64,000 bases of DNA from Macrocystis pyrifera (taxonomy: Eukaryota; Sar; Phaeophyceae; Laminariales; Laminariaceae), in NCBI GenBank assembly GCA_031763025.1, contig JASSKH010000006.1, positions 5,949,691 through 6,013,690 on the forward strand. The letters are read 5' to 3'. The notes beneath the pieces are model-generated. The model saw only the letters and a list, made by a program, of their open reading frames with translations. It was not told the DNA's origin and did no database searches. The stretch's first letter is position 1, and each line of letters opens with the position of its first letter. Shown in pieces: positions 2,043 to 48,090 of the stretch. A program made the position numbers and the translations under genes.

Positions 2043-2964
2043 ATGGGCGATTTGAACGCGAATGGCAGTCGTTCAAGCGCATTGAGGGGTATAAAGCCAT
2101 TCAGTGGTACTAACCTCGCCTCAGCTTGATGACTGGTACAAAAAATCCTTCTTCGTGCTGATTATTGCCTGTCCAGAAGTCTTTGACGTACTGAAGGGGC
2201 AAGTCGGGGCGAGCATCACGACAACAAGGACGGCAGCTTACTCGCGAGAGTCTCCTGAGCGACGCCAAGCCGCGTATGACCGAGCCAACCATTATATTTT
2301 CGCTATCTTCCACTTGATCATTGAGAAACTAGCAGCGATACCGGTAACAAAGCACGCAGAGGCCCCACGAGAGACTCGCGGCAACGGATCAAAGGCCGTC
2401 AAGGAGCTAGAGTCGAAATACCTCAAGCTCGCTAATGGTACCAGAGGTGCCACACAGGAGGCAATCGTGACTACGAGCTTGACGCCGGGACAAGACCCCG
2501 ACAACTACACCAACGAAGTCTCGCGACTGCGCAACCTCCTGACCGAGATGGAGGAATCTATCATGGACAGTCACTTCACCGACATCATTCTCCAAGGTCT
2601 CACGGAGGAGTACTGGGACGTCAAGCTAATGACCTGGAAGGACCCAGACTTCGATCTGCCAAAGATTTAGTCTGCACTGCGTCACCTCTAATCTACCTGG
2701 ACGGACTGCCGAGGAAAAAAAACGGGAAGGATTGCTGGACGTGGCACAGCCATGACAGCACCGTCAACATCGCTTGACCCCAGTGTTATTATCTCCCATA
2801 CGTCTGGCAAGGTAGGGCATTACAGTAGCGGCTGCACCGTGCCTGCCAAGGCCTTGGGGGGAAAAAACAACACACTCGCCGGCCAGAAGAAGACATTTGG
2901 AGCAGGGGGCGTGCTGGGCACGACGCCGAGTCCTACGCGCGAGGGGCTCCGCGTCCGCAGGTGA
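2043..2964 (+). pseudogene. Ty1/copia-type retrotransposon gag, decayed
   Basis: The frame opens at 2043 with a hydrophilic start leading to KPFSGTN, typical of copia gag N-termini. A stop and frameshift follow near 2127. It then continues from about 2104 in another frame through the helical gag body, with a YLKLANGTRGA block and an SLTPGQDPDNYTNEVSRLRN block. A TAG at 2668 interrupts it. The downstream piece (2752-2964) holds a relic zinc knuckle with the spacing C-x2-C-x4-H-x4-C, in which the first two Cys codons are now TCC and TCT (Ser). In living elements gag packages the element RNA in cytoplasmic particles. No integrase, RT or RNase H follows, so this is a truncated, dead fragment. The family call is confident; the exact ends are not. 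Confidence 0.75.
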
Positions 2965-3372
2965 GTAGTACGCACACGGCTGCTGCGATGGGATCCAAAA
3001 CCCGCCTCGATTACACCGAAAATATATCGGTTATACCTTTGACGACGGTTTTGACAGGGGCGTGGCATTTTAACCTGCGAAAATACAACGGACCGCCAGC
3101 CATAGTGGGAGTCGCCTTACCAACGCGGGGTCACCGGAAGACGTTTCACGAAATCGCTGAAAACCAAAGCGCTTGGAAATTTCGAAACGACAACGTTCGT
3201 AATCGCTACAGCACTGTTCGATGGGATTGTCGGAGCTTCCGGAGTCGCCGCCCAAAGAACATAACCGTGGGGTCACCGAACTATCTTGTGAGGATCAGGC
3301 CACCGTATCATCTATCAATTGGGATTGCAGCGGAAGAACGTTCTCTGGAATCGCCGCATCGTCATCGATCGT

Positions 3373-3662
3373 TTAGGGGTGCTGGATCATTGCTTCTGGG
3401 GTCGCTGGACATGCCAACGTTTTGGAGGCTGCTATAACATTGCTTCTGGGGTCGCTGGGCATCATCTGTATCGCTTTAGGGCCGCTAGAATATCGCTTCT
3501 GGAGTCGCTGAACGCTTTTGAGGTCGCTGGACATCATCTGGACCGCGTTAGAGCCGCTGTGACATCGCTTCTGGAGTCGCTGGACATAATCCGGACCGCT
3601 TTAGGGCTGCTGGAACATCGCTTCCGGGGTCGTTGGACATCATGTGAATCGCTGGGCGAGAC
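3373..3662 (+). repeat. Degenerate minisatellite, ~55-65 bp unit
   Basis: About five imperfect copies of a unit built from CGCTTCTGGAGTCGCTGGA, CATCATCTGGACCGC and TTTAGGGCCGCTGGAACAT follow one another. Units differ by substitutions and small indels. The array keeps a short frame open on the plus strand, but nothing suggests a protein. Confidence 0.7.
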
Positions 3663-3702: not shown

Positions 3703-5849
3703 TTGCCTCGTAGTACGTAGCACCACACGTCTCATTTGTGTGAGAGGGGGCGGCAGAAACGTGGGCCTTATGCTCGTCTACTTGGCGAAGTTTGCTTGTT
3801 AGAAGCACCACATGACATTTTTGCACGGGGGGGCGGCAGAAACGTGGTAGTCTGCTTCACAGTTACTTTCTTGGTCAACAAACTGATCGTTGTGCAATAT
3901 TGGTTTTTCCTCAGATGCGGTGGTTGTGCGTTTTTGGAGTGATACGTCTTGTTTCTCGACAACACCAGCCTGTCTTGAACTGTTCAATCACCCTTCGGGC
4001 AGTACCATCCCATGTCAGTGTAATAGTTGTTACAGAGACAAAGGATGACAATTAACACTGCTGTTCGACTGGTATTCGTCCAGAAGTAAAACTCTACAGC
4101 CAGGAACGGCCCGTAGTAGTTAGCTTACGAAGTAATACGGTGCCGAGTACGTCTGTCTGGTATATGTATAGTGCGACCCGCGAGAATTCCCAGGTCTGCG
4201 TGATATGTTTGCGGTTTGCATGCTCGTCCATGCTTCAAAGCTGTCACAGCACTAGTATGCCTTTTGTATGTTGCTAGATTATGCGTGTTTTTGTTAGCTG
4301 TACAAGGGTTGGTCACCCATCGTAAGCGAGAGAGGACCGGTTGATGTTATAGTTGAATGCAGCAAGTCTGGCTATGTCATCTCCACCAAGGGAGACGTAA
4401 TACATATAGATATCATGCCACCCAGCAGTAGCCAGTAGTCTATACCGAGTCGCTGATCGGTATCATGGTCGCCTGTAGCGAGTAGTCCACAGCAGCTGTA
4501 CCATGTGCTTCTGCAGTACAAGTAGTGCGGTATGTCCAATGCCGTTGCTGTTGCTTGCGGTGGAACTCCGTTGGATCTCATCCCGGGTTTACTTGCGGCA
4601 GAACCCCGAAATACCGTTACGACACCAGCCGAGTTTTTTTGTTGGATGTTCAGTTTTCACCGCATGATGGGGGTCTTGAGACTTGAGAGCTGCGTGATCG
4701 CCGTCCTGTTGATGTGCAAATTATAGTACACACCCCACCTGACCTTCATTGCCGGCGATGCCTACTTTTTGTAGACATCATGCCAGCGAACCTGTTTGGG
4801 AAATTTATTTTGGCAAACAATCATTTTTCCCGTTTTTTACCTCACCGTACAGGAACGCATAGTCAACTTGAATTCCAGTGACGTTTCCTAGTCGAGTGCA
4901 CTCCGAAAGGGGTTAACCCTTTTAAGACCGCAGCCCCGTTCTGGGGAAAAACTACTTGAAAATTGAGTGGATCTGTTCTCGGTTGTTGAAAGGACCTGGT
5001 GGGGTAGACTATTCGTTGTTGTAGACACAGCTCTCCGATTCAGTTGTGATCAGTTTACAATACTGTTTGCAGGCAAACGCCGGAATGTATCGAAATATTA
5101 ATGCATGCTATACGAAGGTCATGTTGATCGAGCAATCCAAGTTGTGGTCAATATCTTATAATTGTCGACTCGTCGCCGTTGATATATAGCAGGTAGTAGG
5201 TGAGAGGGTGGGGGTGGATAAACGTGATAAAACCTTTTAGGACTGCAGTCCCGTCTTGGGCACAAACCACTCAAAGTCTAAGTAGCTTGTCCCCGAAACG
5301 GGACTTAAATGGGCTGAATAATGACCTGCGAGCTGGGGTTAATTGATTGCTGTTGTCTTTTACAAAAAGGACATCTATCGGTTAACTGAGCCCCTACCTG
5401 GCGTGTACCTGTTATGATATGGTGTCGAGGTTCATATTATGAAAACAAACGAGCACCGAGTTTACAGCAGCCGAGTTCGTACTTCTGTTGCGTACCTTGA
5501 ATGTGCACTTCACTCACACGAGTGAGGGGCGCAACATGCATGTCCAGGTCGGGGGTGGGTCTCAAAAACCAGATACGTGCAGTAGATCTCTAGGTGATAG
5601 CTGCTTATTATACCCCAGACCATATACCGTAAACACGGTTGGGTAATTATTTGCTCCACGACACGGCGACTAATTTTGGACCTCCATCGCCCATGGACTT
5701 GTCTTTGCGCGTGCCCGCCACCAGACTCCCCCAGGTTTTGCTCGTGCGTGGCCTCGACACACCCAAGAACGGTATGTTGCCGGTTTGACCTCCGAGCATC
5801 TCTCTGCATTGGGGCCCGTCGCGACGTGCGTCTGGTGACCGGGATCATC
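3703..5849. other. Gene-poor stretch with small dispersed repeats
   Basis: No gene is recognised. It contains the second copy of the 1089 repeat (4598-4700). It also contains two related blocks at about 4915-4990 and 5231-5320 that share AACCTTTTA(A/G)GAC(C/T)GCAG(C/T)CCCGT. The part just upstream of 5850 should hold the MFS promoter and 5' UTR. An in-frame ATG at 5676 exists, but its 58 codons look unlike protein. Confidence 0.4.
4598..4700 (+). repeat. Dispersed direct repeat, copy 2 (possible decayed LTR piece)
   Basis: This is the partner of 1089-1183, in the same orientation, with shared blocks in the same order. It lies downstream of the copia gag relic. It may be the 3' LTR remnant; this is inference. 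Confidence 0.45.
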
Positions 5850-27762: not shown

Positions 27763-28445
27763 TGGGGGGGGGGGGGGGGGGGGGTGTACTCGATAGGATA
27801 GATGTACGCGATCTCATGCACGGCCGCAGTCGTATGACCATGGGGGGGGGGGGGAGGTGTTCTCGATATCATGCATGGCCGTAGTCACATGACCATAGAC
27901 CTTCGCATCCCTACAATGCCGGGACGGAGTACGTCGGGTTTTCACCGACCGGGCGGGAAGAGGGGAGAGGGGGGGGGTGTAGTAGGTGAGGCTGCGGAGG
28001 GAGGTGTGGTCATCGTCGTGCATGGCGATAGTCGTGTCACCTGTGGAAGAAGCCTCGCATAGGAGTGACGTTGGGTTTTCGTCCCGCTCCAGCAGATATT
28101 GCTTGCAACGATTGCAACGCTTGCAACAAAATCGCGAAGCGAAACGTGAGTGAGTTGTATCCTACGAATAATAAGAACAGCTGGTGAGGTGAACTTCTAG
28201 CATTTATGTCGATGACAAACGCTGAATGTATTCATATTTTTCCCGCCGGTGTGGCCACTTTCAGGGACAGCCATGGGTATACTACAGTATGTGACTGCCT
28301 CGTAGGTGCCTTACCATGTACACACTACGTGATACAGATATTACATTCCCCTTGTGAGTAGGAAAGGTTCTCCACTCCACCCCGAACAAACGATCAAACC
28401 CGACCACCATCCATGGTGATCGACAAAAAATGACATTGGGCGGGG
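27763..28445 (+). mobile_element. G-tract-associated element, copy A (rearranged)
   Basis: A run of about 22 G is followed at 27785 by the element head (TGTACTCGATAGG...CATGCACGGCCG). The head restarts after a second G run at 27853 (TTCTCGATATCATGCATGG) and again in part at about 28019 (GTGCATGGCGATAGTCGTG). Only the third pass continues into the body (ATTGCTTGCAACG, then GGTGTGGCCACTTTCAGGGACAGC, then CACTACGTGATAC). The 3' part with the two hairpins seen in copies B-D is missing. It looks like repeated or aborted insertions, or slippage between heads. Confidence 0.7.
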
Positions 28446-28499
28446 GAGAGGGTGGAAGGCAGAGTTGGGGAGGGGGGGGGTGGTGCCATGGGTATAAAG

Positions 28500-30764: not shown

Positions 30765-31284
30765 TTAAGATATAGGTTGGTTGGGCGTCGGTTGGCAACG
30801 ACACTGCCGTAAAACATGCCGCTCACTAAGTGAGCTATATAACCATGGTGTCGGGGTTTTTTGTATTTGGGTTCTTGGCGGTCGATCACACCTGGCGATC
30901 GGGATAGATCATTTGTGCGCGGTGGAAAAGCTTTACTCCGCACAAGGGGCCTAATCGTATCCCGTAGAATCTGTGGCAAGGCACCCACGACGTAGATACA
31001 TCGTACCCCCCCTTTGCTGTCTTTGGAAGTGGCCACACCGGAAATTAAACTAACTCATTGAAACTGTCGTCCGTAAGCAAGTCTGCTTCACAGGTGATTG
31101 TTAGCACGATGCAGCTTACCCTTCGTGCGACTCGCCGAACACCTCACGGGGTTTCGAGCTTGGTGCAAGCAATGTCAGCCTGGTCGATGAAAACCCGACG
31201 TGCTCCGTCGCGATATTGTAGGGATGCGAGGGTCTATGGTCATACGACAACAGCCATGCATGATGTCGAGTACACCCCCCCCCG
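30765..31284 (-). mobile_element. G-tract-associated element, copy B
   Basis: A full-length reverse-oriented copy. Reading the minus strand, it runs from the C tract at about 31275-31283 (a G tract in element sense) through TGTACTCGACATCATGCATGG. It passes the GGTGTGGCCAC block at about 31030 and TGATCG/CACGTAG-type sequence near 30955, and ends with the two terminal hairpins at 30821-30835 and 30785-30804. Body order and length (about 520 bp) match copies C and D. It carries no open frame conserved with the other copies. Confidence 0.75.
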
Positions 31285-31514: not shown

Positions 31515-32323
31515 GTGGAGAGATATCTGGTTCTGGGATGTTACAGTAGAATCATAGTTGCACATTTATTCAGGGCAAGCATACACAGAGGCATCGGTAC
31601 AGCAGTGGAAATAGAAGCAGGGGCTGCAACAGCAGCAGCAGCAGTTGAAACGATCGACGGGCTGGCAGTACGTGGGTATCCGATCGCAATCATGGCCAAG
31701 AGCACCACCGACGATTATGAAGACGCGTCATCGTCACAAGAGAGGGAACTGCAAAACAAAGGGGGGAAGATAAGAAAGTTCAAACGGAGGTGGAAGAAAC
31801 GGAGCAAGCGTGAAAATAAGACCTGGCCAAGGAGGCCGAAGCCAGGAAGACGAAAGGCAGAGGAGCGGGAAGAGCGGCAGGCGGGGCCGAAGAAGAGAGC
31901 GGCCGTCGAGTCAAGTCGGCGCAGGAAATCAGTGGGGGGCATCGGGGAGAGGAAAGTCCCGAAAAAAATACGGGTTAGAGCGAAGTAATGAAGACGACGG
32001 ATAGAAGGAAGATGCCGGCAGAGAAACGCTTGTTTGAACAGGAAGTGGAAAGAGAAGTAGACAGGAGGATGTATGTTTTAGCTGTACGCGGACGAACCCA
32101 CGTTGCACGCAGTAAACTCGCAGGCGCACATACAGAGCGCCCGGGACACAGAGACCACGAGATGGACAACCAGCGGGAGCCCCCGAGTAGCATGGGAGAA
32201 CCTTTGAAGAGCTGGTGGGTTTCACATGAGACGGAAGTCTGGGGAAATCGGGGACAATTCGGCCCGAGAACGCAAAGGGGGCAGAGAAGGCGTCAGGATC
32301 GGCTAACGGAAATACGGAAATAG
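31515..32323 (+). pseudogene. Leader/ORF1-like region of the YR retroelement
   Basis: From about 31692 a frame beginning MAKSTTDDYEDASSSQE runs into a very basic stretch (KFKRRWKKRSKRENK). Just after a GGGGGG run at 31761 the neighbouring frame reads as a more natural acidic/basic helix (KKVQTEVEETEQA...DLAKEAEARKTK). A G-run frameshift is therefore likely. A second frame (31988-32323, MKTTDRRKMPAEKRLFEQE...) continues. No domain was recognised. Its position at the 5' end of the element suggests ORF1. Confidence 0.35.
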
Positions 32324-32550
32324 GAAGGTGGGAAGCAAGGGGTAGAGGTCCCCAAAGAGAAGCGACCGAGGAGGACGGCTACTGGACGAAACAAAGAGGT
32401 GGGGACCAAGGAGAGTCGAGCTGGGAGGAGCAAAAATAAGAGCTGGAAAGGAGGGGTGGACCTTGGTCGGTGCAGTAGAAAAAAAGGGGGGATGGGTCGA
32501 TGAACCGAGGAGCGGGAGGGGAAACGACGGAGGGGATTAGGGGAGGCGGG

Positions 32551-32584
<34 letters not shown>

Positions 32585-32670
32585 CGAAATCGGGCGCCGG
32601 GGGGGGGGGGTGGGGTGATAGAGAGCGACACGGAACATAGCAGCTTCTACAAGGAGTCCGAGCAAGCATT

Positions 32671-33352
32671 ATGGACGCACGTTATAGACATGGGGATGAT
32701 CATGTGGAGGGTGATCCGAGCGGATGGCGGATTACCGGCGTGCGGTTCCATGAAGGAACAGGCAATGTCACCGTTGTGCCCAGGACTGTTTTTCATGACC
32801 TGAAAAGGTCAGAGGGACCTGATGAGCTTCGCCGACCTCGACCGGACATGGTACGCGAGGACGGAGCCGTCGGGGAGGCGCAGAAGGGAGGGTGGGACAT
32901 CGCTGACAGACAGGGTGGAGGCTACGATGGGCGTGGCCATATATATGGCAACGCTGGCGATGGACGACGATATGCGGATGGGAAGGGAGGCGTTGCGTCG
33001 GGTGGGGATGCAGTGGGGGCGTCAGTTCCAACAGGTGAAAGAAGGGATCAATCATTTTTACGTGACGAACGATGGGGTGTTGGAGACAAAGGCCTTCGAG
33101 GAGGAGTTCACGAAGCGTTTTAATGCGGACTCGATGAGGTTGAGGGAGGCGGTGCGGATGACGGCCATAAACTCTGGAACGGAGGGGATCTACGAGGCCG
33201 ACAACCAAAGAGGGAGGTCCGCTGCCGGAACCGACCTTTCGGGAGACAGCGACGTGGTTGCAGTTGGCGCCGCTACATATCAGGGCCGAATACTGGTGGA
33301 AGAGGGGGGGGGGGGGGGGGGGGGGGGATGGGCGGGGGGGGGGCTTCACTGA
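32671..33352 (+). pseudogene. Gag-like frame of the YR retroelement
   Basis: Two frames overlap. The first runs from 32671 (GVRFHEGTGNVTVVPRTVFHD). From about 32822 the second reads RVEATMGVAIYMATLAMDDD, GMQWGRQFQQVKEGINHFYV and KAFEEEFTKRFNADSMRLRE. This is a helical, protein-like composition, unlike the repeat-derived frames nearby. It ends in a run of about 22 G at 33305-33327. The position before RT fits a DIRS gag-like ORF1 product, which binds element RNA. No motif fixes the family, so the role is inferred from position. Confidence 0.45.
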
Positions 33353-33984
33353 GAGCAACCGCCGAGAAGGTGAAGGGCGAGGGTACACGGAGAGCAACTG
33401 GCGGGGAGCAGACTGACGGGGGGAGAAGGATAGAGCAGGGGAAGGGGGGGGGGGGGGGGGGGGGGGCGACAAGACACGTGCGCCAGCAGGGAGTGCTTTT
33501 TCTTCAAGAAGGATGGACATTGCCCGTATATGGAGAGATGGGGGGACTTTAAGTTCGAGCATGGAGGGGAGAAGAGGGGACGCGACGAGAAGGGAGGGGG
33601 GGGGGCGGAAGGAGAAGCGGTCGGCGGGGGGGTGGGGAAAAGGGGGGGGGGGGATGGTAAGAGAAGCAGGCGCGAATGAGGACACGGGCTCTCGCGGAGC
33701 CAGGCGGGGAGACGCGACGGACGGGGGAGGCGCAGGCGCAAGGTGGAGCTCGTCGCGGAGATCAGCACAGCTGGGAGACGACCGTCCCAGAGGGGCCGGC
33801 CCGGGTCCATCTGATTTGTCAACTTAGGTGCGGTGAAGCAGAAGGGGGGGAGGAGGTGAGGACAGGGAGGGGGGAGAACACGGGAGCAGCGAAGAGGTAG
33901 TGCAAGGAGAGGGGGGGTTAGCGTGCGGTAACGGGGCCGCGGAGGAAAAAGGGGGGGGGTATGCGCAATGGGGGGGGGGCGTAC

Positions 33985-35540
33985 GGGAGCGAGGGGGAAG
34001 TGCGGGTCGACGGGGCTATACTTGGAACGGGACGGCACGTGAACGACGGGGCCACGCACGGTTAGGAGGGTCAGGTCCGCGACGGGGCCGTGCACGAAGC
34101 GAAGAAGGGGTCTCGCGACGGGGCCGAACAAGGAGCGGGCCGGGGGGAGCGCGCGGCGGGGGCCGTGTACGAGACAAGGGAGAGGGTGTACGGCAGGGCC
34201 GTGCGTGGAACGAGAGGGGAAGCGCGCGATGGGGTAGCACACGGGACAGGAGGGGAGATGCGCAGCGGGGCCGTGCACGGAACGAGGGGGGCGATGCGCC
34301 GCGGGGCCATGCAGGGATCCAGCGGGGAGACGCGCGAGGGGTGAGCACAAGGAACAAGAGGGGAAGTCCGCGGCGGGGCCGTGGACAGATCGAAATGGGA
34401 GACGCACAGCTACTAGACAAGGGGGGGGGTGTACGTCGGGGGCGTGCACGGAACGAGAGGGCAGGCGCGCGACGGGGCCGCACACGGGGCAGGAGGGGGG
34501 AGGTGCGCGGCGGGGGCGTGCACTGAACGAAGGGGGAGATGCGCGGCGGGGCCGTGCAGGGATAGAGAGGGGAGACGCGCGAGGGGCGCGCACAAGGAAC
34601 ACGAGGGGAGGTGCGTAGCGGGCCCGTGGACAGATCGAGAGGGGGAGTGCGTGGCGGGGCTTCCCACGCAACAAGAAAGGAGGGGCACGGCGGGACCGTG
34701 CACGGAACTAGGGGGGAGATGCGTGGCGGGGCCGTGCAGGGATCCAGAGGGGAGACGCCCGAGAGGCAACCACAAGAAACGAGAGGGGATTTCCGCGATG
34801 GGGCCGTGGACAGATCGAGAGGGGGGGTGCGCGGCCGGGCCGCATACGGAACAAGAGAGGAAAGGCACGGAACCAGCAGGGGGATGCGCGGCCAGGCCGT
34901 GTATAGAACGAGAGGGGAGACGCACGGGGGGGGCGCACAACGAACGGGAGGGGAAGCATGCGGCGGCGTCGTAGACGGGTCGGGAGGGGAAGGGCGCGGC
35001 GGAACCGCACAAGAAACAAGAGAGGAGGGATGCAGCGGAACCGTGCACGGAACGAAGGGGGAGATGCGCGGCGGGACCGTGCACAGAACGAGGCGGGGGT
35101 TGCGCGGCGGCGCCGTGCAGGGATCCAGAGGCGAGACGCCCGAGAGGTACGCACATAAAACGAGAGGGGAAGTCTGCGGCGGGGCCGTGGACAGATCGAA
35201 AGGGGGGGTGCGCGGCGGAGCCGCACACGGAACAAGAGAGGAGAGGCCCGGAATCATGGGGGAGAAGCGCGGCGAGGCCGTGTATGCAACGAGAGGGGAG
35301 ACGCGCGGGGGGGGTGCACAACGAACGGGAGGGGAAGCCCGTGGCGGGGTCGTAGACGGGTCGGGAGGGGACGTGCGCGGCGGGACCGCACAAGAAACAA
35401 GAGAGGAGGGGTGTGGTGGAACCGTGCACGGAACGAGGGGGGAGATGCGCGGCGGGGCCGTGCACGGGACTAGAGGGAGGACGCGTTGGGGGGGGGGGCG
35501 CAAGGAACGAGTGGGGGAGTTCGCGATGTTCAGGTCGAGG
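33985..35540 (+). repeat. Minisatellite: 36-bp unit in a ~381-bp higher-order repeat
   Basis: About 1.5 kb is built of ~36-bp units such as ATGCGCGGCGGGGCCGTGCA followed by CGGAACGAGAGGGGAG. Because 36 is divisible by three, one frame reads as 12-aa units of the type RGGAVHGTRGEM. Distinct variants (GGGATCCAGAGG, GTGGACAGATCGA, GTAGACGGGTCGGG) recur in fixed order. GTGGACAGATCGA lies at about 34807 and 35188, and GTAGACGGGTCGGG at about 34970 and 35351, both about 381 bp apart. Two higher-order copies therefore stand back to back. The array lies between the gag-like and RT regions. The very long open frames on the minus strand here (such as 34016-35617) come from the stop-poor repeat and are not called as genes. 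Confidence 0.85.
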
Positions 35541-35739
35541 AGGGAGGCGCGCACGCGGAGCAAGAGAGCAAGAGCGCGGTGGGCCGTGTACGCAGCGAGG
35601 GAGAAGTTGCGTGGCAAGGCCGGGGAAGGAACGGGGGTGCAACAGGCGCGGGCAGTAGAGTGGGAAGAGCCACAACAGTGGAAGGGGGCGTTAGGGTTTT
35701 TGAGGAGGACAGGGGGCGAGACGGTAGAGTAGGGTCGGC

Positions 35740-36638
35740 TGATACGGGTGGTGGCGGAGGCAGGGGGGAAGTTGTTACAACGGGAGGGAGATGATTTAGC
35801 AAAAGTGGAGTGGGGGCTGAGGGGGGAGTTACTGGCTCTCCTTAAGGATGCGGAGCGGGTGATGAAATTGTCGGGAAACGCTCAACATAGACCAATTCGA
35901 ACGGCTAGAGCAAATAGTGAGGGCGGGCGTACCGGTAGATGTCGGTCCAGAGGGTAATCTCGAGCGTGAGCTGGCGTACGGGAGTCAAAGCAGCGCCGAC
36001 AGGCACGCGAACGAGGTGTGGGAGAAGGCGGTGGGCGACGTCAACTTAGGGAGAGCATTGTTGGTTCCAGCGGGGTTGGCGAGGATGGTGCGAGGCCTGC
36101 GGGCGAACCCGGTGGGAATGATTGACGAAAAAGGGGGGAGAGGAGAATCATCCACGATGCGACTTTCAGCGGCGAGCCTCAAGGGTGACGAGGGGGGGGA
36201 GGGCGGCCAGTGAACGAGGCTATATATTGGGACCAGATCCCGAAGTGCCATTCGGCGGACGTGATGCTCCAGATCGTGCGGAGGATCCTGGGGCTGAGAG
36301 ACAAGTTCGGGAGGGGAAGGAGGACACTGATGCAGAAAGGGGACGTGAAGAGTGTATTTCATCAAGTGGGGGTGAACCCCGCAGGGGCCGTGAACTTCGG
36401 GTACGTCCTGGGGGATTACCTGTTCGTCGACCTTCGGTTGAAGTTCGGGTGGAGGGGGAGCCCCGGGTGGTGGGGGGGTATTAGTCAGTGCCCTTCAACA
36501 AGCGCAGCGACAGAAGACCCGTGAATCAGCGACGATCCTGGCGGCAGGAGTGGCGGCTACAGCGCATGTCCGGGTCACAGCTGATACGGGAGCAGAGGTG
36601 GAACCGTTGCCAGACTGTTCAACAGTCAAGGTGGTTGA
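35740..36638 (+). pseudogene. Reverse transcriptase, N-terminal part (YR retroelement)
   Basis: Successive frames give KLLQREGDDLAKVEWGLRGE, then FERLEQIVRAGVPVDVGPEG and ANPVGMIDEKGG, and then, after a G-run shift, RRIIHDATFSGEP. The last two correspond to the RT fingers pattern of DIRS and related elements (NPVG-x-EKGG-R-IIHDxTF). From 36210 a clean frame continues with HSADVMLQIVRRILGL and MQKGDVKSVFHQVGVNPAG, which carries the first catalytic Asp region (D-V-K-S-x-F). FGYVLGDYLFVDLRLKFGW and SPGWWG follow. RT copies element RNA into DNA in this family. The region has at least three frameshifts and is cut at 36639 by the G-tract element C, just before the second catalytic motif. Confidence 0.75.
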
Positions 36639-37204
36639 GGGGGGGGGGGGGGGGGGGGGGGTACTCGTTATGCATGGCCGTAGTCGTATGACCATAGACC
36701 CTCGCATCCCTACAATGCCGGGACGGAGCGCGTCGGGTTTTCACCGACCAGGCAGACATTGCTTGCACCAAGCGCGAAGCGCCGTGAGGTGTTGGGCGAG
36801 TCGCATGAAGGATGAGCTGCATCCTACTAAGAACCGCTTTACAGGCAGATTTTCTTGCATATGGATGACAGCATCATTAATTGATTTTATTTCTGGTGTG
36901 GCCACTTCAAGAGACAGCAATGGCTTTACCATGGAACTGCCTCGTGGATGCCTCACCATATATACACTACGTGATACGACCATCCCCCGTGTGCGGAGGG
37001 AAGGTTCTCCCCGCAAACAAATGATCTAACTTGACCGCCAGCCGTGGTCAACCGCCAAACAAAAAAAACAAACAAACAAACAAACGGTACCCTAGCTGTC
37101 TAGCTCACGCAGTGAGAGGTGTGTTTTACAGCGTCGTCGCCAACCGACGCCAACCCAACTTATATATACCAGTCATCTAATAGGCGGGCGGTAGGGGGGG
37201 GGGG
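36639..37204 (+). mobile_element. G-tract-associated element, copy C, inserted in the YR element RT
   Basis: The body is 36661-37184, with about 21 G before it and about 11 G soon after its end. It reads GTACTCGTTATGCATGGCCG, the CTTGCACCAAGCGCGAAGCG palindrome-like block, GTGTGGCCACTTCAAGAGACAGC, CACTACGTGATACGACC, a (CAAA)n patch, hairpin 1 at 37104-37116 and hairpin 2 at 37131-37150, ending CATCTAATAGG. The RT frame on both sides (VVEGGG... and ...AEDTAWVVFFMDD) shows that it landed in a G tract inside coding sequence. Confidence 0.85.
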
Positions 37205-44200: not shown

Positions 44201-45342
44201 ATAGAACTACTTATAGATATGGCAGTCTCTGAGCGTGCTCGATTAGTACATCCCTGGCCTCTCAGAGCTCCCACTTGGAAATCGCCTCCTTTATTTACTT
44301 GCCGGACCTTTCCAGTGCGTCTTTATTTTCTCCATTTCGCTTGGCATTTTCGGTTACTTTTTCCTTTTTTTTTTTGCTTTCGCTTCGTGTGCGTGAGCGT
44401 ACTCGGAGCACTGCACGTCGGGCGAGCTCGGCGCCGTCGCGGGTTTCAGCGGGGGTGGTGGCGGTTAGAGAGGGGGTTGAAACGAGCGCGGTCGCCGTCT
44501 TCGCGCCTAGGCGTCGTGTGTGCCTCGAGACACGACGGAAACATGAATGAGCTCTGTCTAGCCTCCATCTGCATTCTATTGATTTGATTGTGTTATGTAC
44601 GATCTATAAGGGTCGTTCGGGATCGCAAGGTAAGATTCAAGCGGTGCTTATTTTCGCGACCGGACTGAGAGAGCTACGCAGTCTGAGCACCAACATTGTC
44701 GAGCTGGTGAGCGAGGGCCACGGTGAGCACCGGGCTTCACGCGAGGCGGGCGACGAGGCTCACTGTGGCAGACAGGGAGGAGAGCTTAACCCGGGCCGAA
44801 TCGGTGGCGAGGTGGTCGCGAGAGGGGCGGGAGGCGTACGAGGCTGAGAGAGAAGCTCTGCTGTTCGATTTTTTTTCTTTTTTACCCGTGCAAGGTGTTC
44901 CAATTAGTTGGGCAGAAAATTATTACATGAGAGGGGACGGGGGTTGTTTTTCTCTCTTAAATTCCGGTTTCATTTTCATTGTTGAGGTGCTGCTGCTGTC
45001 CCGTGCTGTGCTTTCTCTTTCGTACATACAGCACATACTCGAAAGAAGAAAAAATGTACCATGCGTACCTGGGGTACGTACGCACATATGGCATGTAAGC
45101 GAACCGCCCGCGACGCGAAGCGTATGTGGCGTCCGAGCTGTTTTCTCCTGAGGCATGGCGGCGGGCCTCGTTGCATTATCAAGTCGCCAGTTTGCAACTA
45201 CAATCAATCATGACAAAACTATATTCAATCATGGACTTCTGTCTGCTTCGCATAATTTGATGTACTTTTCTTTCCTGAGCGAGCGTAGCGGGCAGCGTTG
45301 GCCGCCCGTGGAACCAAGCACCTTGTAGAACTCTTCACAGAT
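44201..45342 (+). repeat. 1.1-kb tandem duplication, unit R1
   Basis: The unit is repeated at 45343-47015 in the same orientation, with moderate divergence along its whole length. Shared landmarks are CTGAGCGTGCTCG, CATCCCTGGCCTCTCAGAGC, GCAGTCTGAGCACCAAC, GGTGTTCCAAT, CGAAGCGTATGTGGCGTCCG and GTTTGCAACTACAATCA. A short frame is kept in both units (here EESLTRAESVARWSREGREA). R1 has a one-base indel just before it relative to R2. R1 carries the empty target site (GAGGGGACGGGGG at 44931-44943) of the element that sits in R2. Confidence 0.8.
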
Positions 45343-47015
45343 ATTTCGTTCTCTGAGCGTGCTCGGTTGGTACATCCCTGGCCTCTCAGAGCTCCCACTT
45401 GGTAGTCGCCTTCTTTTATTACTTGCCGGACCTTTCCAGCGGTTATTTGTTTTCTCTATTTCTCTCTTCGCACGTTCAGTCTTTTTTTCCTTTTTCTTCT
45501 TTCGTTTCGTGTGCATGCTTGTACTCCGACCACGGCACCGCGGGCCAGCGCGGCACCGTCGCGGGTGTCAGCGGATGGGGCGGGTAGAGAGAGGGTTGCC
45601 AGGAGTGCGGTCGCCATTTTCGTGGCTAGGCGTCGCGTGTGCCTTGAGACACGAAGGAAGCATGAATGGACTATGTCTGGCCTCCTGGTGTGGTTCCGGC
45701 CATACCATATACGAGTAAATAAAGTCGTTTTGATATGCAAAATAAAATTCAAGCGATGCTGATTGTTGCGAAGAAACCAAAAATCGCGGAGTGAGCGAGA
45801 CAGTCTGAGCACCAACTTTGTCGAGCTGGCGAACGAGGGCTACGGTGAGCACCCGGCTTCACACGAGGCGGGTGACGGGGCTCACTGTGGCAAAGAGGAA
45901 GAAAGCTTCACCCGGACCGAATCGGTTTCGAGATGGTCGCGAGAGAGGCAGGCGGCGTGCGAGGCTGAGAGAGAAGCACCGCTGATCGTTTGTTTTCTTT
46001 TTACGTTTAACCGGTGTAAGGTGTTCCAATCAGGCAGGAAATAATTACACGAGAGGGGACGGGGGGGGGGGGGTGTACTCGATAGGAGATATGTACTCGA
46101 TCTCATGCATGGCCGTAGTCGTATGACCATAGACCCTCGCATCCCTACAATGTCGGGACGGAGCATGTCGGGCTTTCACAGACCAGGCAGACATTGCTTG
46201 CACCAAGCGCGAAGCGCCGTGAGGTGTCCGGCGAATCGCATGAAGGGTGAGCTGCATTCTACTAAGAAGCGCTTGTGAGGCGAACTTGCATTTGGATGAC
46301 AGCTTCAATTAGTTAGTTTAATTTCCGGTGTAGCCACTTCCAGAGACAGCAATGGGAGTACTATAAAACTGCCTCTTGGGTGCCTTACCTTGAACACTAC
46401 GTGATACGATCAATTCCCTTGTGCAGAGTTAAGGTTATTTACCTCGCACAAATGATCTAACTCGACGACCAGCTGTGGGCGAAAAAAAGAAAGCAGCAGC
46501 CTGGATGTCTAGCTCAGGTACTGAGCGTCATGTTTTACACTGTCGTTGCCAACCGATGCCAACCCAACCTCTATATATAGTATATACCAGGTATATCATA
46601 GGGGACGGGGGGGGGGGGTTCGTTCCGAATTTTTCGGTTTCATTTTCATTGTTTTTGCCGTGCTGATGTGCGGTGCTGTGCTTTCTCTTTCGTATATACG
46701 AGTACAGACATAGAGCTTATCAAAAGAAGAAAATAAGTACCCTACCTAGGGTATGGACATACGTACGACATGTGAGCGAGCGTAGCGGGCGGAATCGCAG
46801 GCGACGCGAAGCGTATGTGGCGTCCGAGCTGTTTTCTCCTGGAGCATGGCGGCGGGACTGTTGGCATTATCAAGCCGCAAGTTTGCAACTACAATCATGA
46901 AAAACCTACATTCAGTAAATGGACCTATGTCTGCTTCGCATAGTTTGATGTACTTTCCTTCCTGAGCGAGCGTAGCGGGCGGCGTAGGCCGCCCGCGGAG
47001 CGAAGCGCCTTACAA
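45343..47015 (+). repeat. 1.1-kb tandem duplication, unit R2 (with element D inserted)
   Basis: Second unit of the tandem pair, about 1.1 kb without the inserted element at 46074-46600. In the possible coding patch it reads NEGYGEHPASHEAGDGAHCG, then SFTRTESVSRWSRERQAACE, in one unbroken frame. In R1 the same patch is split by an indel. The product is not recognised. It could be an exon of an unknown gene or part of a larger unclassified element. Confidence 0.75.
46061..46618 (+). mobile_element. G-tract-associated element, copy D, with target-site duplication
   Basis: The body is 46074-46600. AGGGGACGGGGG stands on both sides (46054-46073 and 46600-46618), while the unoccupied R1 unit has it once. 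The order is TGTACTCG repeated, CATGCATGGCCGTAGTCG, CTTGCACCAAGCGCGAAGCG, GGTGTAGCCACTTCCAGAG, CACTACGTGATACG, hairpin 1 (GCTCAG-gta-CTGAGC, 46512-46526), hairpin 2 (46541-46558), and end ATATCATA. There is no open frame and no terminal inverted repeat. The duplication longer than 10 bp and the lack of TIRs suggest retroposition rather than cut-and-paste; this is inference. Confidence 0.85.
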
Positions 47016-47204: not shown

Positions 47205-48090
47205 GTGTGTTCTTGAATTCACATTAAACCGTTCTTTCTACCGGTCGACATCCAGCACAACCAGTGTCCGTGCCGATTCTTCATTCCTAGAGAGATATCA
47301 TACAAGTTCTGTGGTCACAAACCTACGCCATAGGGATATTACTTTCTCACGCATGCAGTAAGCACAGTGGACAATGCAACCTCATGTCAGCATACTGGAT
47401 ACGGCAGGCACGACATACCCATTCTATGAAATAGGGAAACGAAAGAAAACAAAGAAGAAACAAAAACAAAGAAAACAAATCAAATGATACAAAGAAAAAA
47501 AAATGAAGAAACAAACTGTCGTGCCCACCCGCAGGGGGTGTGGCAGACACTTGAAAAGAAAGAGCTGGAAAAAAAGAGAAAGAAGAAAAAACACTACTAC
47601 AGTACTTGTAAACAGACTATTACGGGGGTCTGTAGTTAACAGGATCTATGGCATACATAAAAACCTATATATTTACCTTGTTTTACTAACAATATTTGGT
47701 CCTGTAAACTATGGACCCCCCGTAATAGGACTAAGAACCAAGGGAAAATAACAGGCAAACCAAAGCACAAAGCACCCTCGCGGTAGCGGCAGCAGTTTGT
47801 GGTACGAGTAGCAAAGCCAGGTTCTCCCTGCTAGTCGGCCTGGTACCTTGCTACCATGTCTGCCGTCTCCGGCCTGCGTTCGTCAACTGTGCCCCGCCCC
47901 TCGGCGTCAGACAATATGATTCAAGCAAAGCAGGCTCGTCATCCACCCACGCCACACGACTCCTTTAACAAGGCCTATCAATCGAAGAAGGGAAGAGAAA
48001 GAAATAAAATGAAAAATTGCAGGTGAAAAAAGGAAGACAAAAGAAGACCACGTTCGAACCACAGCTGCACCTACGGGGGGGTACGATGGT
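47205..48090 (-). mobile_element. LINE 3' UTR copy, interrupted by a MITE
   Basis: Antisense on the plus strand. A (TG)n patch at 47200 (the LINE tail) is followed by the AAACCGTTCTTTCTACCGGT and GTCGACATCCAGCACAACC blocks, the A-rich centre, GCAGGGGGTGTGGCAGACAC, the MITE at 47617, and then CTCGTCATCCACCCACGCC and the GACCACGTTCGAACC block. No coding part is attached. Confidence 0.75.
47617..47728. mobile_element. MITE in a LINE 3' UTR
   Basis: A 112-bp palindromic element with TIRs CTATTACGGGGGTC and GACCCCCCGTAATAG and centre AAAACCTATATATTTA. Flanking LINE copies without the insert (at 49500, 52500 and 62115) show the AACAGA...CTAAGAACC junction it entered. The target duplication is at most a few bases (GA on both sides). 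It belongs to the same family as 15703 and 15741. Confidence 0.85.

Follow-up and report, generated by a model that had tools for sequence, protein, structure and literature searches.

The 64,000-nucleotide stretch of the Macrocystis pyrifera genome analysed here, hereafter the window, contains two tandem units, R1 and R2, of which the second carries an insert of about 525 bp with its empty counterpart in the first. The features of this locus are collected in Table 1, together with three further copies of the insert family (copies A, B and C). R1 and R2 are members of a dispersed repeat family, for which the R flank gave 2231 first-look places in the genome (best 40 scored). Other features of the window include a region at 32000-36000 where the strand is strongly G- and A-rich (GC skew about 0.4), with G runs of up to 33 and tandem units of about 36 bp at 34144-35465, and a palindromic element at 47617-47728 with the ends CTATTACGGGGG(A/T)C, which resembles a small inverted-repeat transposon and has similar stretches in locus L032 and around 5090-5200 of locus L089.

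Table 1. Positions of the R1/R2 locus and of the other copies of the insert family in the window
Feature	Position	Strand	Remarks
Unit R1, empty relative of R2	about 44202-45324	+	
Empty target site AGGGGACGGGGG in R1	44932-44943	.	
Unit R2, insert-bearing	about 45326-47011	+	
Target duplication, tail side	46054-46073	.	AGGGGACG + 12 G
Putative non-autonomous retroposon, body	46074-46599	-	Insert relative to R1; 5' end 46599, 3' end 46074
LINE-shared 3'-terminal part	46074-46160	-	From alignments; some 73 nt, to which this subfamily adds a short internal GTACTCGAT duplication
Target duplication, 5' side	46600-46618	.	AGGGGACG + 11 G
Copy C	27764-28480	-	5'-truncated piece 27785-27841 and a degraded longer copy; G runs 27764-27784 and, between them, 27842-27854
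Copy A	30770-31274	+	Tail-side C9 run 31275-31283; 5' side without a G run of at least 4
Copy B, within a repeated gene	36662-37187	-	Flanked by G runs: G23 (36639-36661) and G11 (37194-37204)

With the insert removed, R2 aligns to R1 over 958 columns at 76% identity and is collinear through the insertion point (one scripted alignment; 77-78% identity when the pieces are aligned separately), as the sequence-only reading of this DNA, which took the two units to be orthologous across that point, had supposed. The site is single in R1 (..CATGAG/AGGGGACGGGGG/TTG..), and in R2 the insert lies between two copies of it (..CACGAG/AGGGGACG+G12/TGTACTCG...TATCAT/AGGGGACG+G11/TTCG..), so that the pattern first described by that reading is seen in the sequence of both units. 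Both states of the site, empty and filled, are genuine, as is the duplication. Four further empty relatives of the R site (L021, L127, L128 and L129) read (A)AGGGGACG with two to three G's and then A or T, and a G-rich tract is present in all five empty relatives read, R1 included. The tract is short in these relatives (GGGG-AC-G3 to G5) and both ends of the filled site in R2 hold 12-13 G's; it was thus lengthened in R2, either before or after the insertion, and either a long homopolymer is not strictly required or R2 differed from its relatives.

The insert lies on the minus strand of the window and ends in GAGTACA followed by C's, and its window-left end is therefore its 3' end. Many of the G tracts adjoining the insert family contain fragments of another family, ending in GGGG-(C)GTACTCATTTGTTGC, which on the other strand is a LINE with an endonuclease and a reverse transcriptase. 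At locus L089, where the frames are broken, a PF14529 endonuclease domain (9.5e-7, above its cut-off) lies upstream of reverse transcriptase pieces, and L113 holds a reverse transcriptase frame of 687 amino acids (RVT_1, 6.3e-26) with PDB matches to the R2 element (8.5e-20; unrelated in name to tandem unit R2) and to LINE-1 ORF2 (3.2e-18). The family thus has a reverse transcriptase domain and an APE-type endonuclease on the same element, as well as 5'-truncated copies with one common 3' end, in the form of pieces of many lengths that all stop at a G tract. The reverse transcriptase query gave 7978 first-look places in the genome, of which the best 115 were scored, and 12 of these, taken from the top rows by protein similarity that reached the end of the query, were read as LINE ends. 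The frame ends in KASNK and the stop codon TGA, followed by GTA(CG), and the C's begin 3-5 nt past the stop, so that the LINE would have practically no 3' UTR. A C-rich tract lies directly behind the stop codon in 12 of 12 ends; its first unbroken run is at least 13 in ten of them, and in L119 and L124 the tract is interrupted by T.

The 3' end of this LINE is shared by the insert family, with 84% identity over 73 nt in copy B and 79% over 71 nt in copy C. Since the last ~73 nt are common to both families, the window-left end with its C tail is the real 3' end of the short element, and the truncated pieces therefore miss the window-right, true 5' end; truncation is found at the 5' end only. 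The short element has no reading frame above 94 amino acids across the insert, and the 94-amino-acid frame extends into the flank. No tRNA was found in the window or in 13 loci, Rfam gave no relevant match, and the sense strand of the consensus contains no B box within two mismatches, with A-box-like matches at one mismatch (box patterns as generally known). An origin from Pol III, tRNA, 5S or 7SL sequences found no support here. As these searches gave neither the Pol III promoter nor the tRNA, 5S or 7SL head of a SINE in the strict sense, we class the element as a LINE-dependent non-autonomous retroposon, in agreement with its LINE-shared 3' end, the lack of a long frame of its own and its target duplication.

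Searches for the retroposon gave 5054-5559 first-look places in the genome depending on the query, of which the best 40 were scored per search. A recount by genome place, which took in the window and loci L001-L088 and required an intact tail end with 80 nt of flank or more, gave 120 copies. On the tail side, the longest G run within the 58 nt ahead of the element core was at least 8 in 103 copies, at least 5 in 116 and at least 4 in 119, these copies being those nearest to the queries and not fully independent, as chain neighbours share tracts; the one exception, L057, has GGAGGAGG in place of the run. Of random 58-nt stretches drawn from the window, 1.6% contain an unbroken run of at least 8. 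On the 5' side (90 nt), 79 of 80 readable copies have a run of at least 4 and 64 of at least 8, a length found in 2.6% of random 90-nt window stretches, and the sole exception is copy A of the window. Two of the three queries that supplied the copies contained G's. The third was without G runs, and with it a run of at least 8 ending at the element was recorded by script in 25 of 30 loci; the remaining ones have runs of 4-5 (L069, L070, L082 and L088) or a long tract that the script overlooked (L077). The association with G runs is not chance. It was likewise proposed in the sequence-only reading that the family inserts preferentially at G homopolymers and that most copies would lie in G tracts, and both proposals agree with the 119 of 120 copies in this query-nearest sample and with the tracts that pre-exist at empty sites. 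The same reading had further copies abutting G/C homopolymers; window copy A has a G run on its tail side only. The run is not significantly longer on the tail side than on the 5' side (medians 14 and 10, p 0.28, n = 74 copies), and a longer tail-side run was thus rejected as a mark of C's borne on the RNA, of which it gives no direct sign.

Empty relatives of the site of copy B show that the tract came before the insertion. The host gene has 67 first-look relatives, of which 39 were scored besides copy B itself, and the best 20 are all empty with a G-rich tract of at least 10 nt exactly at the insertion point, as an unbroken run of 9-16 G's in 13 and interrupted by A, with longest runs of 5-7, in the other seven. 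As these relatives are already G-rich, the tract preceded the insertion. The target was accordingly present before insertion at two sites, in 20 of 20 relatives fetched for copy B and in all five that were read for the R site. In addition, locus L014 contains two tandem empty units with AGGGAGGGAGG(G/A)GGGA and a third that is filled. An automatic scan for empty sites gave many false pairs among family members; of its pairs, those of the R unit, copy B and L014 were retained. The copy at 36639-37204 had been described as sitting in a G tract inside a retroelement reverse transcriptase; the flanking G tracts were confirmed, and the host is a repeated gene around which Pfam found no reverse transcriptase in four pieces, which leaves the retroelement label unconfirmed. 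Copy A was rejected as a further empty-site test, since its sole junction-spanning relative, L114 (C220:6069850-6070110), carries the insert and is uninformative. L114 lies about 56 kb past the end of the window and holds the same insert as 30770-31283, so that the stretch with copy A was duplicated after the insertion.

The target duplication can be read beyond the G's in eight copies, namely the window copy, L013, L023, L053 (= L078), L065, L079, L083 and L086 (= L054). In all eight, the duplication begins with its unique part, and the G tract is at the other edge, in contact with the C-tail end; the duplication of copy B is compatible with this layout but ambiguous. In LINE-1 duplications, the priming homopolymer likewise lies next to the tail, and a G tract always at the C-tail edge is the layout expected under target-primed reverse transcription with the G strand as primer on the C tail. 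Two of the duplications are unusually long (about 45 bp in L065 and about 85 bp in L083), and both lie inside other family copies. Compared with shuffled flanks, duplications were found in 4/66 vs 1.1, 8/56 vs 3.9 and 5/67 vs 1.8 in three of five settings and in 11/67 vs 6.9 and 5/66 vs 2.0 in the other two, and the sequence behind the 5'-side tract recurred on the tail side in 4/66 vs 1.2, 9/53 vs 2.9 and 6/63 vs 0.9, with 9/63 vs 5.0 and 2/61 vs 1.0 in further settings. The excess of readable duplications over shuffled flanks is thus modest; most duplications would fall within the G's and so be invisible. At the 5' junction, six of the eight copies (all except the window copy and L013) show some 4-11 additional G's separating the element from the duplication. 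Priming at the tract does not by itself account for these; at a guess, untemplated addition of C's to the end of the cDNA would.

The insertions also occur in chains. Across a G tract, a second piece of either family was found for 39 of 80 copies (23 on the tail side and 27 on the 5' side), and the chain neighbours have the same orientation on 50 of 50 sides. The pieces can be as small as about a dozen bases (L086). In L113, the order is the short element, a C tract, a 5'-truncated LINE, a C tract, a LINE piece of ~70 nt, a C tract and a further LINE piece. Beyond their C tracts, three of the 12 LINE ends (L118, L120 and L126) continue into LINE sequence and two (L115 and L116) into the short element (by eye). 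Two neighbouring repeats were noted in passing: L014 contains, at about 2089-2400, tandem units of ~121 bp, each combining a G-rich tract with a LINE 3' piece, and a LINE piece in L015 lies beside an open frame of 456 amino acids (2149-3519, plus strand) composed largely of AEAKAAAE-like repeats.

Taken together, what can be read directly from the sequences is G tracts at both ends, G-rich empty sites, a LINE-shared 3' end, a constant position of the tract within the readable duplications, 5' truncation and one-way chains. On this basis, the short family is quite probably a LINE-dependent, non-autonomous retroposon targeting G homopolymers, with priming of the G strand on its C tail. The retroposon RNA would end in GAGTAC(A) followed by C's, the C's presumably being on the RNA itself, and the LINE with the same 3' end would provide the endonuclease and the reverse transcriptase in trans. 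Its endonuclease, by predicted activity, would nick the G strand where a G tract ends, and the freed 3' end could pair with the C tail, where reverse transcription would begin. A second cut, upstream on the opposite strand, would give the target duplication and leave the tract on both sides. Since the duplication includes the tract, every insertion would leave two G tracts open to further insertions in the same orientation. The family reading of the earlier note, including a G/C tail that primes on such sites, is supported, with the C tail (G on the window strand) suited to priming at G tracts, so that its tail alternative and its pre-existing-tract alternative join in one scheme; it did not recognise the element's orientation, its LINE partner or the chains running one way.

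An unlikely alternative is that G tracts are targeted without dedicated nicking, at breaks, gaps or exposed 3' ends such as may arise at G-quadruplexes, with pairing of the C tail alone picking the site. Duplications as long as those in L065 and L083 do not resemble the product of a fixed stagger, and the G tracts of this genome are long and numerous (41 runs of at least 8 in the 64 kb of the window). Against this, the LINE has kept a recognisable endonuclease domain, and in the readable copies the very existence of duplications implies that the second cut was staggered. It is far less probable that the element carries both G runs itself, as its own C-rich ends or as untemplated additions, and inserts without preference. 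The extra G's at the 5' junction and the greater length of the runs in filled R2 than in its empty relatives would suit such an element, but this explanation is already disfavoured by the empty sites, where the tract stands at the exact point (20/20 for copy B, 5/5 for the R site and two L014 units), and the duplications themselves contain the tract. A DNA transposon or a recombining satellite unit would agree with chains of units separated by G tracts and with the filled relative of copy A 56 kb past the window, by which some copies have spread through duplication, but is highly improbable given the one-sided truncation, the 3' end in common with a reverse transcriptase LINE, flanks that differ between loci and the lack of inverted ends in the copies read.

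Returning to G-strand priming on a C tail, we give about even weight to the broader idea that a brown-algal LINE has exchanged poly-A/T for poly-C/G priming, and that, together with its short partner, it multiplies the sites at which both can land and spreads G homopolymers through the genome. With a G-tract target duplicated at each insertion, such priming would make the spread of G homopolymers, and of potential quadruplexes, self-feeding, and the one-way chains, often of 5'-truncated insertions, would be its visible outcome. LINEs and the short elements that depend on them are well known. As in LINE-1 and Alu, the kelp pair would match a homopolymer tail of the RNA to the target primer, and it shares with them the homopolymer beside the tail, the 5' truncation and, presumably, the use of a LINE by a short element, but it would differ in having a C tail and a G primer instead of an A tail and a T primer, and in its near-exclusive targeting of homopolymers. 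The pair thus looks like a natural mirror image of the LINE-1 logic, with C/G for A/T, and it occurs in a multicellular lineage only distantly related to animals and plants. It may explain part of the long G homopolymers of this genome and why chains of repeats form, and its thousands of replicate insertions offer a test bed for whether tail-primer pairing or endonuclease choice sets the target of a LINE.

In the part of the literature covered by our searches, we found no LINE with a poly-C tail or targeted to G homopolymers. LINEs that target simple repeats have been described, with Togen at (TG)n (PMC4640811) and DONG at (TAA)n and TRAS at telomeric repeats (PMC2887409). Judged from the portions of these reports consulted, the kelp elements resemble them in entering a pre-existing simple repeat, but the targets of Togen, DONG and TRAS are di-, tri- or pentanucleotide repeats and that of the kelp elements is a G homopolymer (PMC4640811; PMC2887409). 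The microsatellite-making RTE of Lepidoptera shares with the kelp LINE a very short 3' UTR, a simple-repeat tail and many copies of the 3' end only; it differs in that its sites, in the sections consulted, are described as not sequence-specific and the repeat lies between the duplications (PMC2887409). A close parallel is found in Ectocarpus, where RTEX-N1_Ec32 is an element of ~600 bp with more than 6000 copies and a 3' end in common with RTE-X LINEs (PMC12477816). Like the kelp element, it is a short non-autonomous brown-algal family of thousands of copies, with a LINE-shared 3' end and a 5' region of unknown origin; unlike in the kelp element, a C tail or G target is not mentioned in the sections of that report consulted, the two being compared by description only (PMC12477816). 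C tails or G targets may already have been noted for the Ectocarpus family, and RTEX-N1_Ec32 and RTE-X are perhaps the same kind of pair as that of the kelp.
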